Below, piece after piece: positions 8,220 through 30,783 of a DNA stretch of 50,116 nt. Within the stretch, counting starts at the first letter, position 1; every line of letters begins with the position of its first letter. The position numbers and the translations under genes were made by a program. The DNA lies in the NCBI GenBank assembly GCA_003554945.1, contig PWHN01000090.1:1-50116 (forward strand). Direction: 5' to 3'. This stretch comes from a bacterium. GTDB lineage: Bacteria; T1Sed10-126. The notes under the pieces were generated by a model. That model was not told the origin of the DNA and did not search any database. It saw nothing but the letters and a program-made list of their open reading frames with translations.

Positions 8220-11045
8220 TTAGAGATATTCCGCCAGGTAGTCGGCGGTGTAGGATTGGGAGCAGTCGAGGATGCCTTCGGTGGGGCCGGAGTAGACAAC
8301 CTGACCGCCGTCGGCTCCGCCTTCGGGGCCGAGATCAACGATCCAGTCGGCGTTTTTAACGACGTCGAGGTTATGCTCGATAATAACGACGGTGTTGCCG
8401 CGGTCAACAAGCATGTGAAGAACACTGAGCAGTTTCCGGATATCCTCCTTGTGGAGACCGGTGGTTGGCTCGTCGAGCAGGTAGAGGGTATCGCCGGTCT
8501 GAACGCGAGAGAGCTCGGAGGCCAGTTTTATCCGCTGGGCCTCACCGCCGGAGAGAGTCGTCGCCGGCTGACCGAGGCGGATATAACCAAGCCCAACGTC
8601 ATTGAGAGTCTTCAAGCGACGCTTGACAGGAGGAATAGCGTCAAAAAATTCAAGTGCCTCAGAGACACTCATATCAAGAACATCGGCGATAGTTTTCCCC
8701 CGATAACGAACCTCAAGAGTCTCGTCATTATAACGCTTACCGTTACACTCATCGCAGGTAACATAAACGTCGGGTAGAAAATGCATCTCAATCTGTTCGC
8801 GGCCGGAACCACCACAGGCCTCACAGCGACCGCCCTTAACATTAAAGCTGAAGCGGCCCTTGTCGTAACCGCGCAGCTCGGCCTCGGGCAAGCTGGCAAA
8901 AAGTTCGCGGATGGGGGTAAATAGATTAGTATAAGTGGCCGGGTTGGAACGGGGGGTGCGGCCGATCGGATCCTGATCGACATTGACCACCTTCTCTATT
9001 TCCTCCAGACCTTCTATTTTATCGTAGTCGAGCGGCCGGTCGGTGCTGGTATAAAAATGACGTTTAAGGGCCCGATAAAGGGTCTCGTAAACGAGGGTTG
9101 ATTTGCCGGAGCCAGAGACCCCGGTCACGGCAGTGAAGGCACCAATCGGAAAATCAACCTCAACATCTTTAAGATTATGACCGCGGGCTCCTTTCAGAGT
9201 AAGAAGACTATCGAACTGACGACGGGAGTCGGGAGTTGAAATTTTCCACTCGCCGGAGAGATAGCGGGCGGTGTAGCTGTCAGTTTCATCAACAAGTCCT
9301 TCCTGGGGACCCTGATACATGAGTTCACCGCCGTTTTCACCAGCCTCGGGGCCGAGGTCAATCAAGTAGTCAGCGGCGCGTATGGTCTGCTCGTCGTGTT
9401 CAACGAGAACAATGGTGTTATCGAGATCGCGAAGATCAACCAGTGTCTCCAGCAGACGAGAATTGTCGCGGCTGTGAAGTCCAATGGTTGGCTCATCAAG
9501 GACATAGGTAACCCCGGCGAGACGAGAACCAATCTGGGTAGCAAGACGTATGCGCTGGGACTCGCCGCCGGAAAGAGAACCCGCTTCCCGGGAAAGAGTC
9601 AGGTAATCGAGACCGACGTTCTCAAGAAAACTGAGTCGCTCGACAATTTCCTTGAGGATCGGCCGAGCAATTTTCTTTTCAAAGCCTTCCAGCTCAAGCT
9701 GGTCCATGAAGCAGCGCAGATCGTTGATATGCATTTCACAGCACTGGGCTATGTTCTTCTCGCCAACGGTTATCGAGAGAGAAGAATCCTTGAGCCGGCG
9801 ACCGTCGCAGGCGGAACAGGGGACGCGAGACATGTATTTTTCCATGGCACGACGTACGCGGCGGCTGGAAGAGCGCTTGTGGCGCTTCCAGACGAGCGGC
9901 ACAGCGCCCTCAAAACGACCTTCAAAACTATAGCCGCCCTCGCGGGAGGAAAAGCTGAACTCGACCTCTTCGTCAGTGCCGTAGAGAAGAATATGACGCT
10001 GTTCCGGCGACAGGTCCTCAATCGGTGTTGCACTATCAATATCGTAATGACGGGCAAGACTGCGGATACGCTGCTGGAACCAGGTCGAGGAGGAACTGGA
10101 GAAGGGCTGGAGAGCGCCCTCGGCCAGCGAGAGACGCTCCTCGAAGATGAGGTCGGGGTCAACCCGGAGGTCGTGGCCAAGCCCGTCACAGACGGGACAG
10201 GCGCCGTAGGGACTGTTGAAAGAAAAGATACGAGGCTCGACTTCGGAATAGGAGCAGCCACAGTCGGGACAGGCGAACTGTTCGCTCATCGTGGTCGACT
10301 GCCCGGAGTCATAGTCCTCGACAGTAACCAGGCCGCCGGCCAGGTCAACGGCAAGTTTCATTGAATCAGCGATACGGCTGCGGTTCTCGTCAGAGCCCTT
10401 GATCTTAACGCGATCAACAATAACTTCAATCGTATGTTTCTCTTCCTTTTCAAGCACGGGCAGATCGGCCTCGTCAAGCCGATGCTGTTCGTCGTCGATC
10501 CGAACGCGCAGATAGCCTTCTTTTTTCAGTTCTTCAAGTTCATCCTTGTATTGACCTTTGCGCCCACGGACAAGAGGCGCAATTATTAGGAGACGGGTAC
10601 CAGAGTCAAAGGTCATGACTTCGTCAACCATGCGGTCGATAGTCGTGGCTTCGATTGGATGACCGCAGTCGGGACAGAAAACGTCACCGACGCGGGCAAA
10701 AAGCAGGCGCAGGTAGTCGTAAATTTCAGTTACAGTGCCGACGGTGGAGCGCGGGTTGTGGGAGCGATTCTTCTGTTCGATAGCAATTGTCGGGGTTAGA
10801 CCGTCGATACGTTCAACATCTGGTTTTTCGAGCTGACCGAGAAAACGACGCGCATAGGCGGAAAGCGACTCGACAAAGCGGCGCTGTCCCTCGGCGTAAA
10901 GTGTATCGAAGGCAAGCGAGGACTTGCCGGAACCGGATATACCGGTGACGACGGTAAGCTGTTCACGGGGAATTTTGACATCGAGACCGGCGAGGTTATG
11001 TTCGCGGGCGCCGTGTATTTTTATCCAGCTTCTGTTTTTTCGCAT
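8220..11045 (-). CDS. uvrA: UvrABC excinuclease subunit A
   Basis: 941 residues, the usual length. The damage-recognition ATPase of nucleotide excision repair, acting as a dimer with UvrB. Two ABC modules are visible. The first has [23 protein letters not shown], a zinc finger starting CPDCGHPIE, the signature [17 protein letters not shown] and [11 protein letters not shown]. The second has [19 protein letters not shown], the damage-binding zinc module [11 protein letters not shown]...[21 protein letters not shown] and [11 protein letters not shown]. The ATG at 11045 is preceded by GAGAAGGTG; a GTG at 11054 lies within that site and is not used. uvrB is not in the window and no operon partner is seen. 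Expected inducer is DNA damage, but no LexA box was identified. Confidence 0.97.
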
Positions 11046-11423
11046 AGGTAACACCTTCTCAACCTTTTCAGTTTCCAGTTTATAGTTTTTAGTTTCCAGT
11101 TTATAGTTTTAGTTCTTGACCCGCAACTCGTAACGCGTAACAAGTTCTTGGGTCTTGAAGGTCAAGTTCAAGATGGATTCCGGCTCGGAGTCCGGAATGA
11201 CGGACGATAAGTCAAAGTCAACCTCGAGTTCCCCCCTCACCTGTATCCTCTCCCTCGGAGGGGAGAGGAATTAAATCAAGGGCGGCTCGGAGGCCGGAAT
11301 GACGAGCTAAGCGGCATTTGTGAGAAAACGCCAAGCAAGTAAAAACGGATAATCCGTATTTATCCGTGTTCATTCGTGTCCTGTATAAGAATCATATATT
11401 TTAGATTAAATCTGGAAAAATTT
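11046..11423. repeat. Composite repeat spacer upstream of uvrA
   Basis: No gene. Order along the plus strand: AGTTTCCAGTTTATAGTTTT tandem-like run (about 11071-11113), GACCCGCAACTCGTAACGCG module (about 11118-11137), TTCTTGGGTCTTGAA, a palindromic unit (11175-11202), a C-rich palindrome CCTCTCCCTCGGAGGGGAGAGG (about 11246-11267), a second palindromic unit (11281-11307) running into AGCTAAGCGGCATTTG, and an ATCCGTGTTCATTCGTGTCC repeat (about 11363-11383). The same order occurs at 31990-32205 and, inverted, at 38296-38713. Confidence 0.75.
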
Positions 11424-12047
11424 CTATGTTTCAGTAAGGCGTTGAGGCAGAAAATGGAAGTAAAAGCGGATGAAGAGGAGAGCGAGGAAGAAAATAAGGG
11501 CGGCGATAAAGTTAAAGTCACGAAGCGCGAAGCCGGTTGGCGGAAGCGGATACAAATGATAGCTGAAAGCGGTGAGGACAAGCGGAAAATGGAGAGCAAT
11601 AAGCAGCCCGAAAATCGCCGCAAGATTTTGACTTGCTTTCTGCCGGGCAAGGTAACGGTGAAGAAGAAACCAGGTGGCAAGCATAGCCCAGAGAAGCGAA
11701 TAGGAGAGCCAGACAGTTTCATAATAAAAGGGCTGCGCAGTTTCCAACAAGCCTTGAATTACCCCGAGCAGAACAATGGAACCGGAGGCCAAAAAAAGCA
11801 CAGCAGCAAGCGAGCGCAGACGAGCAATCCGCTCACTACCATGGGAAAGCAGATAAAAATAAGTGGCAAAAGCAAAGACAAAGAGGAAGACAAAGCTAAC
11901 CACGGCCAGCGAGTAGTAAAAAACACTGAAGGCAACAGGTGAGAAAAGACGCCAGTCCCCCCGGGCAACATTGGCGAAACCATAAAGCCCGCCGACAAGC
12001 ACAAGTAAGAAGATGAGGAAATCAAGAAAACGAAGGAATACTTTCAT
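11424..12047 (-). CDS. CcmC-like six-TM membrane protein lacking haem motifs
   Basis: 207 residues with six predicted membrane segments (about 8-25, 37-62, 76-100, 110-130, 140-160, 180-200). The ATG at 12047 follows GGGAGGAG and overlaps the stop of the upstream gene by one base (TGATG); a TTG one codon earlier is unlikely. By position after CcmA- and CcmB-like genes, and by a partial match such as ALHFPLVLTAFSYHLYPLPPTG against the last conserved loop of CcmC, I read it as a distant CcmC homologue. The tryptophan-rich WWxWDxR haem-handling motif and the two conserved histidines are not there. Without the neighbours it would be called a hypothetical membrane protein. Haem handling is doubtful. 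Confidence 0.6.
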   Translation of the reverse strand: MKVFLRFLDFLIFLLVLVGGLYGFANVARGDWRLFSPVAFSVFYYSLAVVSFVFLFVFAFATYFYLLSHGSERIARLRSLAAVLFLASGSIVLLGVIQGLLETAQPFYYETVWLSYSLLWAMLATWFLLHRYLARQKASQNLAAIFGLLIALHFPLVLTAFSYHLYPLPPTGFALRDFNFIAALIFFLALLFIRFYFHFLPQRLTET

Positions 12048-12706
12048 CAAAACTCCTCCCAGAAAAACTCGCCAACAAGCCAGAGACCGGCAAATAAAAT
12101 TATCAAATAACTCAAAAGCCAGTAGAACCAGGCCCAGGGATAAGCTCCAGACGGCTCAAAAACCAATCGGAACAAGTAGCGAGCCGATAGTAAATGGGGA
12201 AGTAAAAAGGGTAGAAAAAGAAGGAAAAAAACGTGATTAGAAAATTCACCGGTTAGAGAACCGAGCCAAATAATAAGTTCAGAGAGGGCAAAAGCATGCA
12301 GGAGAGCGAGTATAAAAAGCAACCAGAACTGTCCGGCATCGATTTCCAGCAAGTAAAAGATCAAAAACGAATATACAGCAACAGGAAGCAGAAGACGCAA
12401 TAATGCAACAAAAAGTTTTTCCAGAAGATACTCAAAACAGTCGACGCCCGCAAGCGCATACTGTTGTACGAGACCATACTGACAATCTCGAGCAATTACC
12501 GGAAAAAGTGACAGCAGGGTGGTAAAAAGAATTGCCAGCCAGAGTCCCAGGCTCAATATATCAGCCGAAAGGGCGGGAACAATCCGGGAAAGAGAGACTG
12601 ATAACAAGAGGAACCCGACTCCAATCGCTGATAGCAAGACAACGGTGAAGAAGTTACGTACAAAGAGCTTCATCTCTAATACAAGGATATGAAAAATTTT
12701 AAACAT
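12047..12706 (-). CDS. CcmB-like ABC transporter membrane subunit
   Basis: 219 residues, almost exactly the length of E. coli CcmB (220). Six hydrophobic segments. The stretch SRIVPALSADILSLGLWLAI then LFTTLLSLFPVIARDCQYG matches the CcmB pattern (L-x-R-I-x-P-x-I...W-x-A-x-L-x-x-L-L-x-L-x-R-x-F-x-x-D-x-x-x-G), followed by a conserved leucine-rich membrane stretch and FLPFLLPHLL. In known systems CcmB is the membrane part of the CcmABCD complex that frees holo-CcmE during cytochrome c maturation. The ATG at 12706 is behind GTGAGGAAG and overlaps the upstream ATPase-like gene by 8 nt. Family assignment is fairly good; a working Ccm role is doubtful because its ATPase partner is motif-less. Confidence 0.72.
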   Translation of the reverse strand: MFKIFHILVLEMKLFVRNFFTVVLLSAIGVGFLLLSVSLSRIVPALSADILSLGLWLAILFTTLLSLFPVIARDCQYGLVQQYALAGVDCFEYLLEKLFVALLRLLLPVAVYSFLIFYLLEIDAGQFWLLFILALLHAFALSELIIWLGSLTGEFSNHVFFLLFLPFLLPHLLSARYLFRLVFEPSGAYPWAWFYWLLSYLIILFAGLWLVGEFFWEEF

Positions 12707-13298
12707 CTTCCTCACCCACAGGAATCTCCTCCGAGGATGAAGTGTCGGTTTTAATGAGAAGATTGTCAGAGGCCTGCTCATGCGGAACCGTATCTATCGT
12801 GATTACTATGCGAGAATCTTGGACAAAATTTTGAAGATCCTTACAGACCAGGTTGTATTGTCTGAAGTTTAATCTCTCGAGGGGATAAGAACATACAACC
12901 AGAGGGCGGGGGGCGGTAAGTACAGTTGCCATTTTAAGCATGAAGAGCCGATTGGCACTCAAGAAAGTAACCAGTTCGTCGGGATCAATATTTTTTAAAT
13001 AATCAGACCGAACTGAGCCGCGGAGAGAAAAAAGGGCGGTAAAAAAGTTTAAATTTTCAGCGGCAGTGAGTGAGAGAAAAAGCTCTGGAGAGGCAGTAAT
13101 GAAACGCAGGGAATCACGGAAGACAAAAATATTTCGCCAGGCATCACGACCATTCCAGTATAAAATACCCCCGCCGGGGCGACGGAGACCAGCCAGAACC
13201 AGGGCCAGCGTGTCGCGTAGTTCACGACTTGCCTCGTGAACAACAAGATTAAGCCACTCGCCGGAGCGTACTTTTAAATCAAGACCCTGCACGATCAA
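12699..13298 (-). CDS. Degenerate CcmA-like ABC ATPase (pseudo-ATPase)
   Basis: 199 residues from the TTG at 13298. It aligns along its whole length with CcmA: GLDLKVRSGEWLNLV, LAGLRRPGGGILYWNG, SLTAAENLNFF and a C-terminal TIDTVPHEQ region. Every nucleotide-site motif is changed: Walker A (GxNGAGKTT) reads HEASRELRDT (21-30), the signature LSAGQ reads LSANR (113-117), Walker B LDEP reads CSYP (136-139), and the H-loop histidine position reads D (TID). ATP hydrolysis is therefore not expected. The homologous N-terminus (INTLELHDAVVKAPPDL) lies upstream of the TTG in the same open frame, to about 13346, but has no ATG/GTG/TTG, so the true start may be a CTG/ATA/ATC codon. It ends with an acidic tail and overlaps the ccmB-like gene. 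Confidence 0.7.
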   Translation of the reverse strand: MIVQGLDLKVRSGEWLNLVVHEASRELRDTLALVLAGLRRPGGGILYWNGRDAWRNIFVFRDSLRFITASPELFLSLTAAENLNFFTALFSLRGSVRSDYLKNIDPDELVTFLSANRLFMLKMATVLTAPRPLVVCSYPLERLNFRQYNLVCKDLQNFVQDSRIVITIDTVPHEQASDNLLIKTDTSSSEEIPVGEEDV

Positions 13299-13358
13299 AT
13301 CGGGAGGTGCTTTTACTACCGCATCATGCAGCTCTAAAGTGTTGATTATATCCCCAAC

Positions 13359-14303
13359 TTAGTCGAGTAGCTCCCGGGCTTTATTGTAAATGTGTGGTGC
13401 GGTAAGCCCGTAAGCATCAAGCAGTTCACGCGCTTCTCCTGACTCTGCGTAAGTATCATCAATTGCCACAAAACGCATAGGAACCGGTTCGCGGGCACTA
13501 AGAGCACGAGCAACTGCACTCCCCAGTCCCCCCCAGATCTGATGTTCCTCGGCCACCACAACCCGACCTGTCTTACGAGCCGACTGAACAATCGTAGCCT
13601 CATCCAGCGGCTTCATGGTATGCGAGTCAATCACCTCTGCTTCCACACCTTCTTCGGCAAGATTTTCCGCCGCAACAAGCGCTTCAGCGACAAGTAATCC
13701 ACAGGCAACAATAGTTAAATCGTCCCCGGGGCGAATCACGTTTGCCTTGCCCAGCTCAATACCGCTTTCACTTTCGCTATCATAAATAACAGGAACCCGG
13801 GGTCGTCCGGTGCGCATGTAGCAAGAGGTCTCAGCGGTCAATAACTGAGGCATGAGGGCACGGGTGGCATATCCGTCCGCGGGCACACATACAATCATTC
13901 CGGGCAGGGAACTCATGAGAGCGAGGTCCTCCACGCTCTGCTGTGTGGCACCGTCTTCTCCCCCACTTATACCGCCATGGGAGGCAACAAATTTTACATT
14001 CAAACGAGGATAAGCAACCGAAACACGCATCTGGTCATAAGCGCGATTAGTCAGAAAACAGGCGAAGCTGCTAACAAAAGGGAGCAGCCCGCTGGCCGAC
14101 AGACCAGCGGCAAGACCAACCATGTTTGCTTCCTGGATTCCCACATTATAAAAGCGCTCCGGAAATTCTTGCTGAAACATATAAGTTCGAGTTGACTTGG
14201 CAAGATCACCGTCTAGAACGACAATTTCCTCGTGCTGACGTCCAAGTTCGACAAGCGCTTCACCATAGGCATTACGAGTCGGAGGGCCGTATTCTAAATT
14301 CAT
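13359..14303 (-). CDS. Transketolase, C-terminal subunit
   Basis: 314 residues: the pyrimidine-binding and C-terminal domains of a two-subunit transketolase. Visible motifs are VLDGDLAKSTRT, RFYNVGIQEANMVGLAAGLSASG (with the catalytic Glu of the TPP-binding GI-EAN/Q region), SHGGISGGEDGATQQSVEDLALM and YMRTGRPRVPVIY. With the N-terminal subunit it moves two-carbon ketol units in the non-oxidative pentose phosphate pathway. Its ATG overlaps the N-subunit stop (ATGA, 4 nt). Its own TAA at 13359 is followed in the same frame by the open frame of the CcmA-like gene, so the two are probably on one transcript. Confidence 0.93.
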   Translation of the reverse strand: MNLEYGPPTRNAYGEALVELGRQHEEIVVLDGDLAKSTRTYMFQQEFPERFYNVGIQEANMVGLAAGLSASGLLPFVSSFACFLTNRAYDQMRVSVAYPRLNVKFVASHGGISGGEDGATQQSVEDLALMSSLPGMIVCVPADGYATRALMPQLLTAETSCYMRTGRPRVPVIYDSESESGIELGKANVIRPGDDLTIVACGLLVAEALVAAENLAEEGVEAEVIDSHTMKPLDEATIVQSARKTGRVVVAEEHQIWGGLGSAVARALSAREPVPMRFVAIDDTYAESGEARELLDAYGLTAPHIYNKARELLD

Positions 14304-15133
14304 TTTTTTACCCCCTTGCGGGCCTGCTCCAGCTCTTGCAGGGCCTGCTTCGTCTCCTCATCATCAGGGGCAACACCGTGAAAATCGTTATTATGTTCCA
14401 TAAAAGAGACTCCTTTCCCTTTTACCGTATGAGCAACTATAGCGCGCGGTGTGTCGGGATCTTTTTGTGCCCAGCGGTAAGCACTGTCCACGGCTTTTAA
14501 ATCATGTCCGTCTATTTCCTTGACCTGCCAGCCAAAGGACTGCCATTTTTCAACCAGCGGTTCCAAACCAAGTATCTCGTCAACAGGTCCGTCCAGCTGG
14601 AATTTATTGTAATCGACAACCGCCGTTAAATTTCCGAGATTATGATGCGCCGAGAAAGCGACTGCCTCCCAAACCTGACCCTCATCAAGTTCACCGTCGC
14701 CAAGCAGACAAAAAGAGTGAAAATTTTCATCAAGCTGTTCGGCGGCCAGAGCAATACCAGCTGCTATAGACAACCCCTGGCCGAGGGAGCCTGTGGAAGC
14801 TTCCACAGCGGGCAGACGGGAAAAATCCGGGTGACCCTGCAGCGGACTGCCAAATTTACGAAGAGTAGAAAGTTCTTCCAGGGGAAAATATCCAGCCCGG
14901 GCGAGAACTGAGTAAAGAGTGGGAACGCCGTGACCTTTGCTGAGGACAAAACGATCCCGTTTGGGCCACAGTGAATTTTCCGGATCCAAATTCATTATTC
15001 GGAAAAAGGGCACAGCAGTCAGCTCAACCATGGATAGAGAGCTACCCGGATGACCGCTGCCGGCAGTATTAATCATGTCAACAACATCCGCACGGATGTC
15101 ATAAGTTAAGACTTCAAGTTCTGAAAGATCCAT
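14300..15133 (-). CDS. Transketolase, N-terminal subunit
   Basis: 277 residues, the TPP diphosphate-binding half of a split transketolase. Motifs: SGHPGSSLSMVEL, SKGHGVPTLYSVLA, STGSLGQGLSIAAG, and the TPP site GDGELDEGQVWEA...NLTAVVDYNKFQLDG. The start at ATG 15133 has GGTGAG seven nt upstream; two in-frame GTG codons further up (15148, 15145) lie in or before that site. It forms a tight pair with the C-terminal subunit. A weak CCCAGA/TCTGGG hairpin at 15198-15212 lies upstream without a T-run. Confidence 0.93.
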   Translation of the reverse strand: MDLSELEVLTYDIRADVVDMINTAGSGHPGSSLSMVELTAVPFFRIMNLDPENSLWPKRDRFVLSKGHGVPTLYSVLARAGYFPLEELSTLRKFGSPLQGHPDFSRLPAVEASTGSLGQGLSIAAGIALAAEQLDENFHSFCLLGDGELDEGQVWEAVAFSAHHNLGNLTAVVDYNKFQLDGPVDEILGLEPLVEKWQSFGWQVKEIDGHDLKAVDSAYRWAQKDPDTPRAIVAHTVKGKGVSFMEHNNDFHGVAPDDEETKQALQELEQARKGVKK

Positions 15134-15254
15134 TTTACTGCTCACCACTTAAAGAAGTATAGGACAACAATTTTACAACTGAGTGAATTTATTCGCACCC
15201 AGATTTTCTGGGACAAAGATTTTAACACAAACCTGAAAGAGGAAAAGGAAAATT

Positions 15255-18134: not shown

Positions 18135-19991
18135 TCAGGTAATTTCCGGCGGCGAAATTTCATAGAAACTATGAATTTCCACCCGTCCGTCCCGAAGTCG
18201 AAAGGTGCAGTGTTGAACTCCGCCAGTTCGAATAAAACGATAATCACTACCAATACCTATTCGTGTTCCCGAATGAACTGCATTTTCAACTGAAATAAGC
18301 GCGTCTTCACGCAAGGTAGCCTGTTTAAAAAGGGAATCCTTTTCCTCTTCGAAATTTTCAATGTTTTGCTGAAGGCGCTCCCGATTAGCGAGTAACTTTT
18401 CTAATTTTTCTCGGTCCTTTTCCGGCAGAGGTCCGCGCCCCTCCAATGTATTGACTGCTCTTTCTATCTTATCCAGTTTTTCCCGCTGATCGACTAACTT
18501 TCCTTCTATACGGGCAGCACGACGAAAATACCCGGGATCAATACCAACCTCCATACGAGTTTCTGTGGTACCGATAGAGCCTACTTCACAGGCATAAATA
18601 AAAAGTCCTGCCCGGACCGATCCACCGGTTATCAGGCCACGACCGCCGGCAACATAAATACCTTTGCCTGCATCAATACGGCTGTGTAAGATCATTTCTC
18701 CACCAATCACATAGCCCTGGGCTATCACACCGGCCTGTTCGATAAAACTTGATATGACGTTTCCCCGAGCATTAAGCTGGGCGCCGCCTTTACCCCGAAT
18801 GCCTTCTTTGACAACAATATCCTGTTCGGACTGAATATAGGATTTGCCTACCCCTTGTTCGATTATTATGTCCCCACTGGCTTTTATCTTAAATCTATCG
18901 TGTACATTACCCTTAACTACAACAGTACCGTCGAAATCAATATTCCCGGTACTGTAATCAACGTCGCCTTCAACAATATAAATTTCCTGAACCCGGAGTT
19001 CGCCCTCGCTAATAGTAACGTTACCACTGGCCGTAGCGTAGAATTTGTTGTTCTGGCGGCGAACATTTTTTCCCGCCACAATATTCTTTTCATCGCCTCG
19101 CTCGGCTTTAATCTTTTTTCCCCGAACAGTGATCCCCGGTCTTCCCGGCGTAGCCGGTCTAATCTCGGCCAGTATTTCCCCTTCTTCCACGTTATTAATG
19201 AGATTTAATTCACGGAAATCAACCCGTCCTTCCGACTCCGCGGGGCGTGGTTTTTTATCCGTCTCAAAATAGGTGATTACCTCGGCAGGGTCCCCTTTCT
19301 CCGGCGGCCGACCCCGGGCCACTTCGACGGGTTCGTTATAATTCTCGTTTTCAATCATATTTTCAATTCGATCCCACTTAATCCCCTCGGTTATGCGCTC
19401 CGATTTTAATTTTCTTCGAGCTCCTTTCAGCGAAGCCGGCTCACCTCCCAGTCGAGGGGGTAAAATAGTCATTCGAGCCGACAGCCCCTCCTCGAGAACC
19501 TGGACTTCGTAACGAGCGTTAAAATTTTCATCCGGTGGGACGACCCCTATTTTAACCGGTTCGCCGTCTGGATTCAGAGCGGCCTTTCTCACTTCATCAA
19601 AATCGCAGTACTCCAGGCCAATATGCTGTAGATGGTCAATTATTTCATCAGCCTCCACAGCTTTACCGGTGCCAAGTGGAGGATGAATAGTAAGCAAAAT
19701 TTTACCTTCACTAACCTGGAGGTTGAAGGAACCATCAACCCCTTCTGCCGCCTCGAGTGCCTCTTCCAGAGTTGCTTCCAGCAAGGAATCGTCAGATACC
19801 CGGGGACGAATCCGAAGCCTCCAGGGCCGGGCAAAAAAACCAAGCAAGCCAGAAGTCCCTACCTGAATAACTGTGGCTTCAATTTCGCTCAGGGTAAGAC
19901 CGAGTTCCTCGGCTCCCTTTTTCATAGCTTCAGGCTTAGTCTCAGCCTCAACTATTACCTGGCGCCGGGCTTCAGCCTCCTCGCCGCTCAT
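18135..19991 (-). CDS. FapA-family protein (DUF342, flagellar assembly protein A)
   Basis: 618 residues. Residues about 8-62 form a Jag-N-like domain (VIVEAETKPEAMKKGAEELGLTLSEIEATVI...GLLGFFARP). The FapA/DUF342 body follows: a linker GEILAEIRPATPGRPGITVRGKKI, then a right-handed beta-helix of short repeats (GNVTISEGELRVQEIYIVEG, VVVKGNVHDRF, GDIIIEQGV, GNVISSFIEQAGVIAQGYVIGG) and a coiled coil (about 490-560) rich in E/K/R. Family members are polymer-forming-like proteins linked to flagella or envelope in diderms and clostridia; the biochemical role is unknown. Its ATG overlaps the HAD gene stop by 4 nt, tying it to the lpx operon and making an envelope role more likely than a flagellar one here (inference). 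Confidence 0.85.
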   Translation of the reverse strand: MSGEEAEARRQVIVEAETKPEAMKKGAEELGLTLSEIEATVIQVGTSGLLGFFARPWRLRIRPRVSDDSLLEATLEEALEAAEGVDGSFNLQVSEGKILLTIHPPLGTGKAVEADEIIDHLQHIGLEYCDFDEVRKAALNPDGEPVKIGVVPPDENFNARYEVQVLEEGLSARMTILPPRLGGEPASLKGARRKLKSERITEGIKWDRIENMIENENYNEPVEVARGRPPEKGDPAEVITYFETDKKPRPAESEGRVDFRELNLINNVEEGEILAEIRPATPGRPGITVRGKKIKAERGDEKNIVAGKNVRRQNNKFYATASGNVTISEGELRVQEIYIVEGDVDYSTGNIDFDGTVVVKGNVHDRFKIKASGDIIIEQGVGKSYIQSEQDIVVKEGIRGKGGAQLNARGNVISSFIEQAGVIAQGYVIGGEMILHSRIDAGKGIYVAGGRGLITGGSVRAGLFIYACEVGSIGTTETRMEVGIDPGYFRRAARIEGKLVDQREKLDKIERAVNTLEGRGPLPEKDREKLEKLLANRERLQQNIENFEEEKDSLFKQATLREDALISVENAVHSGTRIGIGSDYRFIRTGGVQHCTFRLRDGRVEIHSFYEISPPEIT

Positions 19992-22450: not shown

Positions 22451-23773
22451 TCAATCGACCAGCGCAAATTTAAACAATCCCTCGGTGGCCACTTCACCGT
22501 CAGTATACGCCTTGCCTTCCATCATCCCCGAGCGACTGCGCAGCCGTTTGCCGGTGACCTCAAAGATAAGCTGATCACCAGGACGCACGGGTTTACGCCA
22601 TTTTACGTTATCGACACCCATAAAGTAAATATTTTTGCCCTCGTTTCCGGGACGCGACAGGATCCAGGCCGCGCCGAGCTGAGCTATTGCCTCAATAATT
22701 AAAACGCCGGGCATAATGGGATCGCCGGGGAAGTGTCCCTGAAAAAACTCTTCGTTGATGGTAACGTTCTTGAGCCCGATGGCCTTCTCTTTCTCGTGGT
22801 CCATAGAAAGAATACGATCAACTAACAAAAGTGGATAACGGTGCGGCAGAACGTCAAGAACGGCATCAATGTTCATCATTTCGTCACCACCGCGACGCGC
22901 CTGGTGAGCAATTTCAGCCGGCGATTTACTTATGCGACCGGCAAGTTTTTCCGCCAGAGCAACGTTGAGAAAGTGGCTGTTTTTGACAGCAACCACGTGG
23001 CCAACTATAAAAGTTTCAAGTAAAGCCAGATCGCCAATTATATCGAGCACCTTGTGACGCACAAATTCATCCGAAAATTGCGGCTCATCCCCAAGCAGGT
23101 TACCTTCTTTGTCCAGAACAATTGCATTATCCAGACTACCCCCCAGGGCAAGATTGTTTTCCAGCAGATCTTCTATTTCTTCTTTGAAACCAAAAGTTCG
23201 GGCCGGAGCTATCGACTCACCAAAACTTTCAGGGGATAACGAATAAGATAAGAATTGATCACCAATATATTCGTTATCAAAACTGATTGTGCAGCTAATT
23301 TTAAATTCAGTGTCGGGCAGCAGAACTATCGACTGGTCACCGTCCTCAACGTAAAGCGGCTTGTTAACGCGATAAACTTCACGCGTGCCGGAGAGCTCTT
23401 CCAGACCAGTCTCCTCGAAAATTTCAACAAAACCGGCCGCACTACCGTTAAGAGCAGGAATCTCGGGCGCTTCGACGTAAACGTTGGCGTCGGTAATTCC
23501 GAGGCCAAAAAAAGCTGCCATTATATGCTCAACGGTATAGAGTTCCTCGCCAGAACTGGAAAGTACGGTAGCACGGGGGATATCCTCAATTGCATCAACC
23601 GAAGGTTCAAAAACAACATCCTGATCAAGGTCCGTTCGAATGAACTTAATTCCCTCCCTCGATTCAGCGGGTTCAACCAGCACTCGGGTTTCACTGTTAG
23701 TGTGGATGCCAATGCCTTCTATTTCTACCCTATCGGCAAGAGTGCGTCTTTTACGGTAATAGTCAGTACTCAC
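22451..23773 (-). CDS. LpxC-FabZ bifunctional fusion protein
   Basis: 440 residues. Residues 1-285 are LpxC, the zinc deacetylase committing UDP-acyl-GlcNAc to lipid A: zinc ligands His83 (VEHIMAAF), His240 and Asp244 (VRHKVLDIIGD), and a catalytic-type His267 (KNSHFLN). Residues about 298-440 are FabZ, the 3-hydroxyacyl-ACP dehydratase: VLPHRYPLLLVDR, GHFPGDPIMPG with His347, and Glu361 fourteen residues on. The fusion is known from Bacteroidetes and some other diderms; it joins the enzyme that uses hydroxyacyl-ACP for membranes with the one drawing the same pool to lipid A. lpxD ends 12 nt upstream. Confidence 0.96.
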   Translation of the reverse strand: MSTDYYRKRRTLADRVEIEGIGIHTNSETRVLVEPAESREGIKFIRTDLDQDVVFEPSVDAIEDIPRATVLSSSGEELYTVEHIMAAFFGLGITDANVYVEAPEIPALNGSAAGFVEIFEETGLEELSGTREVYRVNKPLYVEDGDQSIVLLPDTEFKISCTISFDNEYIGDQFLSYSLSPESFGESIAPARTFGFKEEIEDLLENNLALGGSLDNAIVLDKEGNLLGDEPQFSDEFVRHKVLDIIGDLALLETFIVGHVVAVKNSHFLNVALAEKLAGRISKSPAEIAHQARRGGDEMMNIDAVLDVLPHRYPLLLVDRILSMDHEKEKAIGLKNVTINEEFFQGHFPGDPIMPGVLIIEAIAQLGAAWILSRPGNEGKNIYFMGVDNVKWRKPVRPGDQLIFEVTGKRLRSRSGMMEGKAYTDGEVATEGLFKFALVD

Positions 23774-29456: not shown

Positions 29457-30783
29457 CCACATTAAATGTGTTTCATGAAGCTAACCGGGTTGGAAGTTAT
29501 ATAAGAGATTCCTCCGGTCGAATTAAGTTTCAATATGACAGCTCCTGGCTTGATAACCAGCGTTTCCCAATTTCATTGACGATGCCGCTTCAAGAACAAC
29601 CATATTCCGGAACAATCGTGGATACATTTTTTAGTAATCTTCTACCGGACGATCCTGCCACCCGGAAAAATTAGCTGAAACACTACACAGTGCAGGCATT
29701 GACACCCATTCTCTGCTCCAGGAGCTAGGAAACGACTGCGTGGGAGCTTTTCAATTTTTGCCCGAAGGAAACCTGCCTGAAGACCCCGGCATAATTGAAG
29801 CCGAACCAATTACTGAAGAGGAAATTATTGCCACCCTCAATAACCTTGAATATATTCCGCTTGGCGTCGAACGGGAAAAACCTTTTCGAATCAGCCTGGC
29901 CGGCCAGCAGGCGAAAACAGCTTTTTTGCGCTGGAATGACGAGTGGTTAAAACCTCTGAAAAGTACTCCTACGTCTCATATCTTTAAACCACAAACAAAC
30001 GACCCCTACCTCCATCACACCGCGGAAAATGAATGGTTCTGCATGGAATTTGCCCGCCGCCTCAGCCTGCCTGTTCCTGATCTCACTCTTGAAAAGTTTG
30101 GTGATCAGACCGTCCTCATCGTCAAACGATTTGATCGAATTATCGATGAATCCAGGCAATCAATTCGCCGTATTCATCAGGACGATTTTTGCCAGATACT
30201 GGGCCGGCCCCATACTAAAAAATATGAACACACCGCAGAAGGCGAGCGTTTGGTTAAACAATGCCTTAATAAATTACGAACGAGCAACCGAATTCGTGAC
30301 GACCAGGCCCTGTTTATCAAAGGTCAAATTGTCCAGTGGCTACTGGGAGCAGGCGATGGACACCTTAAAAACTACAGTTTTTTCCTGAGTGGACCTGATC
30401 AATACCGCCTGACACCTTTTTACGACATTATGTCCAATGAACCGTATGATCAGGATAATCCAAAAGCCAATCTCCGTGTTCATGAGGGACTCCGGAAATC
30501 CTATCCAGCCGTGCTCGCTTTCGCCCTGGGACCAGAGGGACATACTAATCCTGATGACATCCATCCGGAGGATTTACGAGCCTTAGAAGCACACACTCTT
30601 CTAACCAAAGATGAAATTGATCGGATTCTCCGGGAAATCCACCAAACTCTTGATAAAACTGTCCATCGCCTCAAAAATGAGGTCAGCGATACTGTGCCGG
30701 ATAGCATTCTTGAACCCATACTGCATGGTATCACTCGACGGAGCAAAATTCTGGAGAAGGAATATGGCCCCACCGGGGGCTAA
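29453..30783 (+). pseudogene. hipA: HipA-type Ser/Thr kinase toxin, frameshifted
   Basis: Two frames together give a full HipA. The first (29453-29674) ends LLPDDPATRKN-stop; the second, readable from 29668, continues KLAETLHSAGIDTHSLLQELGNDCVGAFQFLPEG and runs to 30783. The break lies at five A's (29666-29670); one more A would restore a continuous protein (ATRKKLAETL). Downstream parts are intact: the N-subdomain end, SLAGQQAKTAFLRW, STPTSHIFKPQ (ATP loop region), GAGDGHLKNYSFFL (catalytic loop with Asp) and LTPFYDIMS (metal-binding Asp). HipA kinases phosphorylate glutamyl-tRNA synthetase or related targets and stop growth. The break may be real inactivation, phase-variable slippage, or a sequencing error. 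Confidence 0.85.

Follow-up and report, generated by a model that had tools for sequence, protein, structure and literature searches.

A CcmABC-like locus with a motif-less ATPase gene, possibly retained for an ATP-independent role in a probably haem-poor bacterial lineage

Can the membrane complex of cytochrome c maturation be kept once its ATPase and its haem site have been lost? The question is raised by three contiguous genes in the window (the whole stretch of 50,116 nucleotides analysed here), which lie head to tail on the minus strand behind a split transketolase. They encode a CcmA-like pseudo-ATPase of 216 aa (12699–13349), a CcmB-like six-helix permease of 219 aa (12047–12706) and a CcmC-like six-helix protein of 207 aa (11424–12047). 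The first two genes overlap by 8 nt (12699–12706) and the last two by 1 nt (12047), and the lengths, overlaps and open frames described in the original prediction were all verified on this strand. Upstream, the stop codon of tktC (transketolase C-terminal subunit; 13359–14303, minus strand) lies ~10 nt ahead of the point at which homology to CcmA starts, and tktC is preceded by tktN (transketolase N-terminal subunit; 14300–15148, minus strand). Downstream, uvrA (8220–11054, minus strand) is a separate gene beyond a gap of ~370 bp. The reading favoured here, with a probability of about 0.5, is that the trio encodes a complex descended from CcmABC whose ATPase subunits are dead, and that a lineage which is probably haem-poor has kept it for some purpose that needs no ATP.

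The trio also occurs, at the identical place, in G001 (MAG CSSed10_354m), the only other genome of the phylum among those examined. Soda-lake sediment is the source of the CSSed10 dataset (PMC6146748), and both genomes belong to uncultured bacteria of soda-lake type. Gene order in G001 matches that of the window throughout (lpxA-lpxI-HAD-ctpA-deacetylase-tktN-tktC-A-B-C-uvrA). Between the two genomes, the CcmA-like proteins are 33% identical, the CcmB-like proteins about 38–39% and the CcmC-like proteins 35%; identity among the neighbours is 53–74%. A contig-wide genome scan for the family found G001 alone; two sequences per protein are known for the family. The placement in Halanaerobiales that had been suggested at first was unsupported, only these two of the examined genomes sharing the phylum, and UvrA gave similarities too uniform for the lineage to be assigned.

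Homology was assessed by aligning each window protein with its G001 orthologue and comparing the resulting pair profiles with those made from the proteins of 33 ordinary ccm loci. In full-length profile–profile comparisons (hhalign), the CcmA-like, CcmB-like and CcmC-like pairs matched CcmA, CcmB and CcmC at 99.4, 98.2 and 97.2%, respectively, and all cross pairs were close to zero (0.1% for the CcmC-like pair against CcmA and against CcmB). Rather than falling into unrelated families, the three overlapping genes therefore match CcmA, CcmB and CcmC one to one and in operon order, as the original prediction had proposed. Searches against family models gave matches of graded strength: the CcmA-like protein matched TIGR01189 (E = 5e-12) with a score of 45.8, far under the cut-off of 131.6; the CcmB-like protein matched PF03379, the Pfam model of CcmB (E = 0.0018), with a score of 18.2, under the cut-off of 24.9; and the CcmC-like protein had no family match in the Pfam and TIGR searches. 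Against PDB sequences, the best match of the CcmA-like pair profile was E. coli CcmA (2.1e-9; positions 8–202, nearly the whole length), and the CcmB-like and CcmC-like pair profiles had no match. The CcmC-like pair scored 64 against the CcmC profile, compared with at most about 21 for reversed or shuffled pairs and at most about 22 for unrelated membrane proteins; the rows that ranked highest in the decoy set were ordinary CcmB or CcmC genes that had not been filtered out. An AlphaFold prediction of the CcmC-like protein (single chain, from two sequences) gave six helices at a pLDDT of 59, consistent with CcmC; that of the CcmA-like protein, made in the same way, was too poor to use (pLDDT 34). 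Searches of the predicted models with Foldseek and VIA-align returned unspecific helical-bundle matches only, the models being too poor to decide either way.

The CcmB-like protein also matches ABC-2-like permeases encoded beside other ATPase genes, in keeping with the superfamily to which CcmB belongs. Its best match is nevertheless CcmB (73, against up to 61 for those permeases), and it comes with a partner that other ABC-2 systems lack, a CcmC homologue. Run over 386 diverse genomes, the CcmB-like and CcmC-like pair profiles recovered CcmB and CcmC of the ordinary kind, almost all of them from ordinary ccm loci, and, among the loci inspected, no motif-less relative; the CcmB-like profile likewise retrieved none across the 40 examined genomes of the phylum of genome G215. 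Every non-family match whose locus was inspected proved to be an ordinary CcmB or CcmC, with one exception, L074, which is a frame of 1489 aa unrelated to CcmC; four weaker matches of the CcmC-like profile lie outside this set. One of the loci found by the CcmC-like profile (L075 in genome G296) is a ccmABC locus with intact motifs, in a genome for which the Pfam model of CcmB listed no match.

The loss of the nucleotide-site motifs from the CcmA-like protein, first noticed in the window, is seen in G001 as well. All 27 ordinary CcmA proteins compared retain Walker A and Walker B, and nucleotide-site residues that are invariant among them have been lost from both CcmA-like proteins. In E. coli, CcmA residues N36, K40, T41, D151 and H184 contact ATP, and mutating them abolishes cytochrome c synthesis (PMC9616876). 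In both CcmA-like proteins, each of these positions either carries a different residue or lies in a segment where the match has been lost. The signature glycine has become Asn133, the Walker B glutamate Tyr155 and the D-loop aspartate Asn161, and Asp-Thr stands in place of the H-loop Thr-His. Since the derived states N133, Y155, N161 and T187 are shared, the motif loss probably predates the split of the two genera and is ancestral to both. From these sequences, we infer that the CcmA-like protein is unable to bind ATP. That it has rebuilt a non-canonical site and continues to bind a nucleotide there is very unlikely: the segment that once held Walker B and the D-loop (RPLxVxxYPLxxLN) shows unusual conservation (56% identical against 33%; 0.028 of circular shifts), a test that is suggestive only because the segment was picked after the alignment had been seen, but the pair alignment keeps no conserved P-loop lysine, Walker B aspartate or glutamate, or H-loop histidine.

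The haem site of the CcmC-like protein has lost residues as well. In both CcmC-like proteins, P-His1 is replaced by Ser46, the position of R128 is occupied by Val112, and the tryptophan-rich WWxWDxR motif is absent. The position of P-His2 aligns with Y166 or with a gap, and a conserved histidine, H164, lies about two residues off. The initial claim that both the motif and the conserved histidines had gone thus held for the motif and P-His1, whereas two histidines are in fact conserved in the pair, H153 (intramembrane, LHxP) and H164 (FSYH), neither of which is present at that position in ordinary CcmC. The stretches VWLSYSLLWAM and LTAFSYH are also conserved in the pair. TM4 and TM5 are the CcmC helices that meet CcmB in the solved structure (PMC9616876), and their counterparts in the CcmC-like pair are 51% identical, compared with 30% in the rest of the protein (Fisher p = 0.008; 0.029 of circular shifts), although here too the segment was chosen after the alignment had been seen and the test is only suggestive. 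In the CcmB-like protein, P166 and P170, four residues apart, align by column and spacing with P175 and P179, the TM5 prolines without which Shewanella CcmB fails (PMC11868835).

The surroundings of such a complex were searched for in both genomes, which are 91–93.5% complete. Neither yielded a second intact ccmABC, a second CcmB or any CcmB over the Pfam cut-off; nothing matched PF01578 (CcmC, CcmF and CcsA) above its cut-off, and neither CcmE (PF03100) nor ferrochelatase was detected. Control genomes gave the expected matches in these searches. As far as the assemblies show, the locus is therefore not strain-specific debris beside an intact copy, a concern that had been raised at the outset, and cytochrome c maturation is unlikely given that CcmE, CcmF/CcsA, a second CcmB and ferrochelatase all went undetected. 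Judged by the genes tested, the lineage is probably haem-poor, seemingly without the tested haem pathways. It is highly doubtful that the trio goes on handling, without ATP, haem or a different tetrapyrrole acquired from the environment. CcmB in excess has been reported to export haem alone (PMC11868835), and H164 lies close to the P-His2 position; against this, the residues of P-His1 and WWxWDxR, including the R128 position, are gone, and with CcmE, CcmF and CcsA absent there would be no haem recipient, nor is there a ferrochelatase.

Whether the three genes are under selection was judged from the differences between the two genomes by codon position. Second-position changes are well below third-position changes in all three genes: 95 against 150 among 215 in the CcmA-like gene (p = 1.7e-8), 71 against 139 in the CcmB-like gene (p = 2.3e-11) and 72 against 132 in the CcmC-like gene (p = 2.1e-8). 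The corresponding dN/dS values are about 0.3, 0.25 and 0.24, which are indicative only, as synonymous sites are saturated. These results support purifying selection on all three genes rather than neutral decay, as had originally been argued. It is quite improbable that the trio is a slowly decaying relic of cytochrome c maturation with no present function. Such a relic would fit the loss of catalytic and haem residues, the absence of the partner genes and the rate of change, the dN of the trio (0.64–0.80) being about two to three times that of the neighbours (0.18–0.42), with the CcmA-like gene fastest. However, when one lineage was simulated under a crude neutral model, each gene acquired a mean of ~5–7 stops, whereas the real frames are intact in two genera, and the codon-position asymmetry, the conserved gene order and the shared derived residues likewise speak against decay.

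The main warning comes from the start of the CcmA-like frame. Good ribosome sites had been claimed for all three genes, and this proved correct for the CcmB-like and CcmC-like genes, which have ordinary starts and purine-rich ribosome sites, but not for the CcmA-like gene. There, no ATG, GTG or TTG was found within or upstream of the N-terminus in either genome (window 13298–13349; G001 L026 7201–7375). Homology opens with ATA-ATC-AAC in the window and CTA-ATA-AAT in G001; the earliest ordinary in-frame start is a TTG at 13298 in the window, 17 codons into the homology, and in G001 it is reached only beyond the former P-loop. Translation would need initiation at ATA, ATC or CTA, or would proceed from an internal start only. 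Readthrough from tktC was considered and rejected: the two frames coincide in the window but not in G001. Without an ordinary start codon, the CcmA-like protein may be the most weakly held part of the trio. It is conceivable, if unlikely, that present function rests with the CcmB-like and CcmC-like proteins alone, the CcmA-like gene being carried along, weakly translated, until it is lost. It is the least conserved of the three as well as the one lacking an ordinary start; moreover, E. coli CcmAB are dispensable for loading CcmE with haem (PMC9616876), and CcmB alone can translocate haem (PMC11868835). The CcmA-like frame, however, stays open in both genomes even though synonymous sites are saturated, and it shows the asymmetry of second- and third-position changes given above.

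Under the favoured reading, the motor and the cargo site would have been lost in the common ancestor of the two genera, and the remaining inner-membrane scaffold would have been retained by selection. The most likely assembly would combine a CcmB-like dimer with two CcmA-like subunits underneath and a single CcmC-like subunit at its side. In E. coli, CcmAB have been proposed to work on CcmC as a lever powered by ATP (PMC9616876); the CcmA-like subunits may instead form a rigid, non-hydrolysing clamp, and the pocket of the CcmC-like subunit, with its newly conserved residues (H153, H164 and VWLSYSLLWAM), may serve a non-haem ligand or partner. Because haem reaches CcmE in E. coli without CcmAB, one can imagine a derivative that assembles even though it no longer uses ATP. 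Some points tell against this explanation: the conservation of TM4 and TM5 may simply mirror what any CcmC conserves, the trio evolves fast relative to its neighbours, and the CcmA-like gene has no ordinary start in either genome.

The closest known system is CcmABCD of E. coli (System I; PDB 7F02, 8CE5), with which the trio shares the A-B-C order, the protein lengths, full-length homology of each subunit, six predicted helices in CcmC and the essential TM5 prolines of CcmB. Unlike CcmABCD, the trio has lost the residues of Walker A, the signature, Walker B, the D-loop and the H-loop, as well as P-His1 and WWxWDxR; no obvious CcmD-like small ORF follows the CcmC-like gene, and the CcmE and CcmF partners and ferrochelatase are absent. 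Degenerate ATP sites in ABC transporters are known as half of a pair, and heterodimeric ABC exporters with such a site keep one working site. The CcmA-like protein resembles these exporters (reviewed in PMC7756269) in the loss of catalytic residues inside an ABC ATPase domain, but the trio includes just one ATPase gene and every motif has gone from it, so that a homodimer would have no working site. Searches of the open-access literature for a motif-less CcmA found nothing relevant. At somewhat less than an even chance, the trio may represent a wholly dead-ATPase descendant of CcmABC that has taken on a new ATP-independent job, such as that of a passive flippase, a sensor or an envelope scaffold, in at least two genera apparently without haem synthesis. 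If so, an ABC scaffold can outlive its motor, with a sole motif-less ATPase selected alongside a permease and a CcmC homologue, and the locus would bear on the mechanism of CcmABC by indicating which abilities the complex retains in the absence of both ATP and haem.

Three further genes of the window were noted. One protein (22451–23773), encoded within an lpx/bamA cluster, fuses LpxC and FabA/FabZ-like domains, which indicates that the organism is probably diderm. A FapA protein carrying a Jag N-terminal domain (18135–19991) adjoins lpx genes, and a gene with a HipA_C kinase-like domain (29740–30783, plus strand) lies close to envelope genes.
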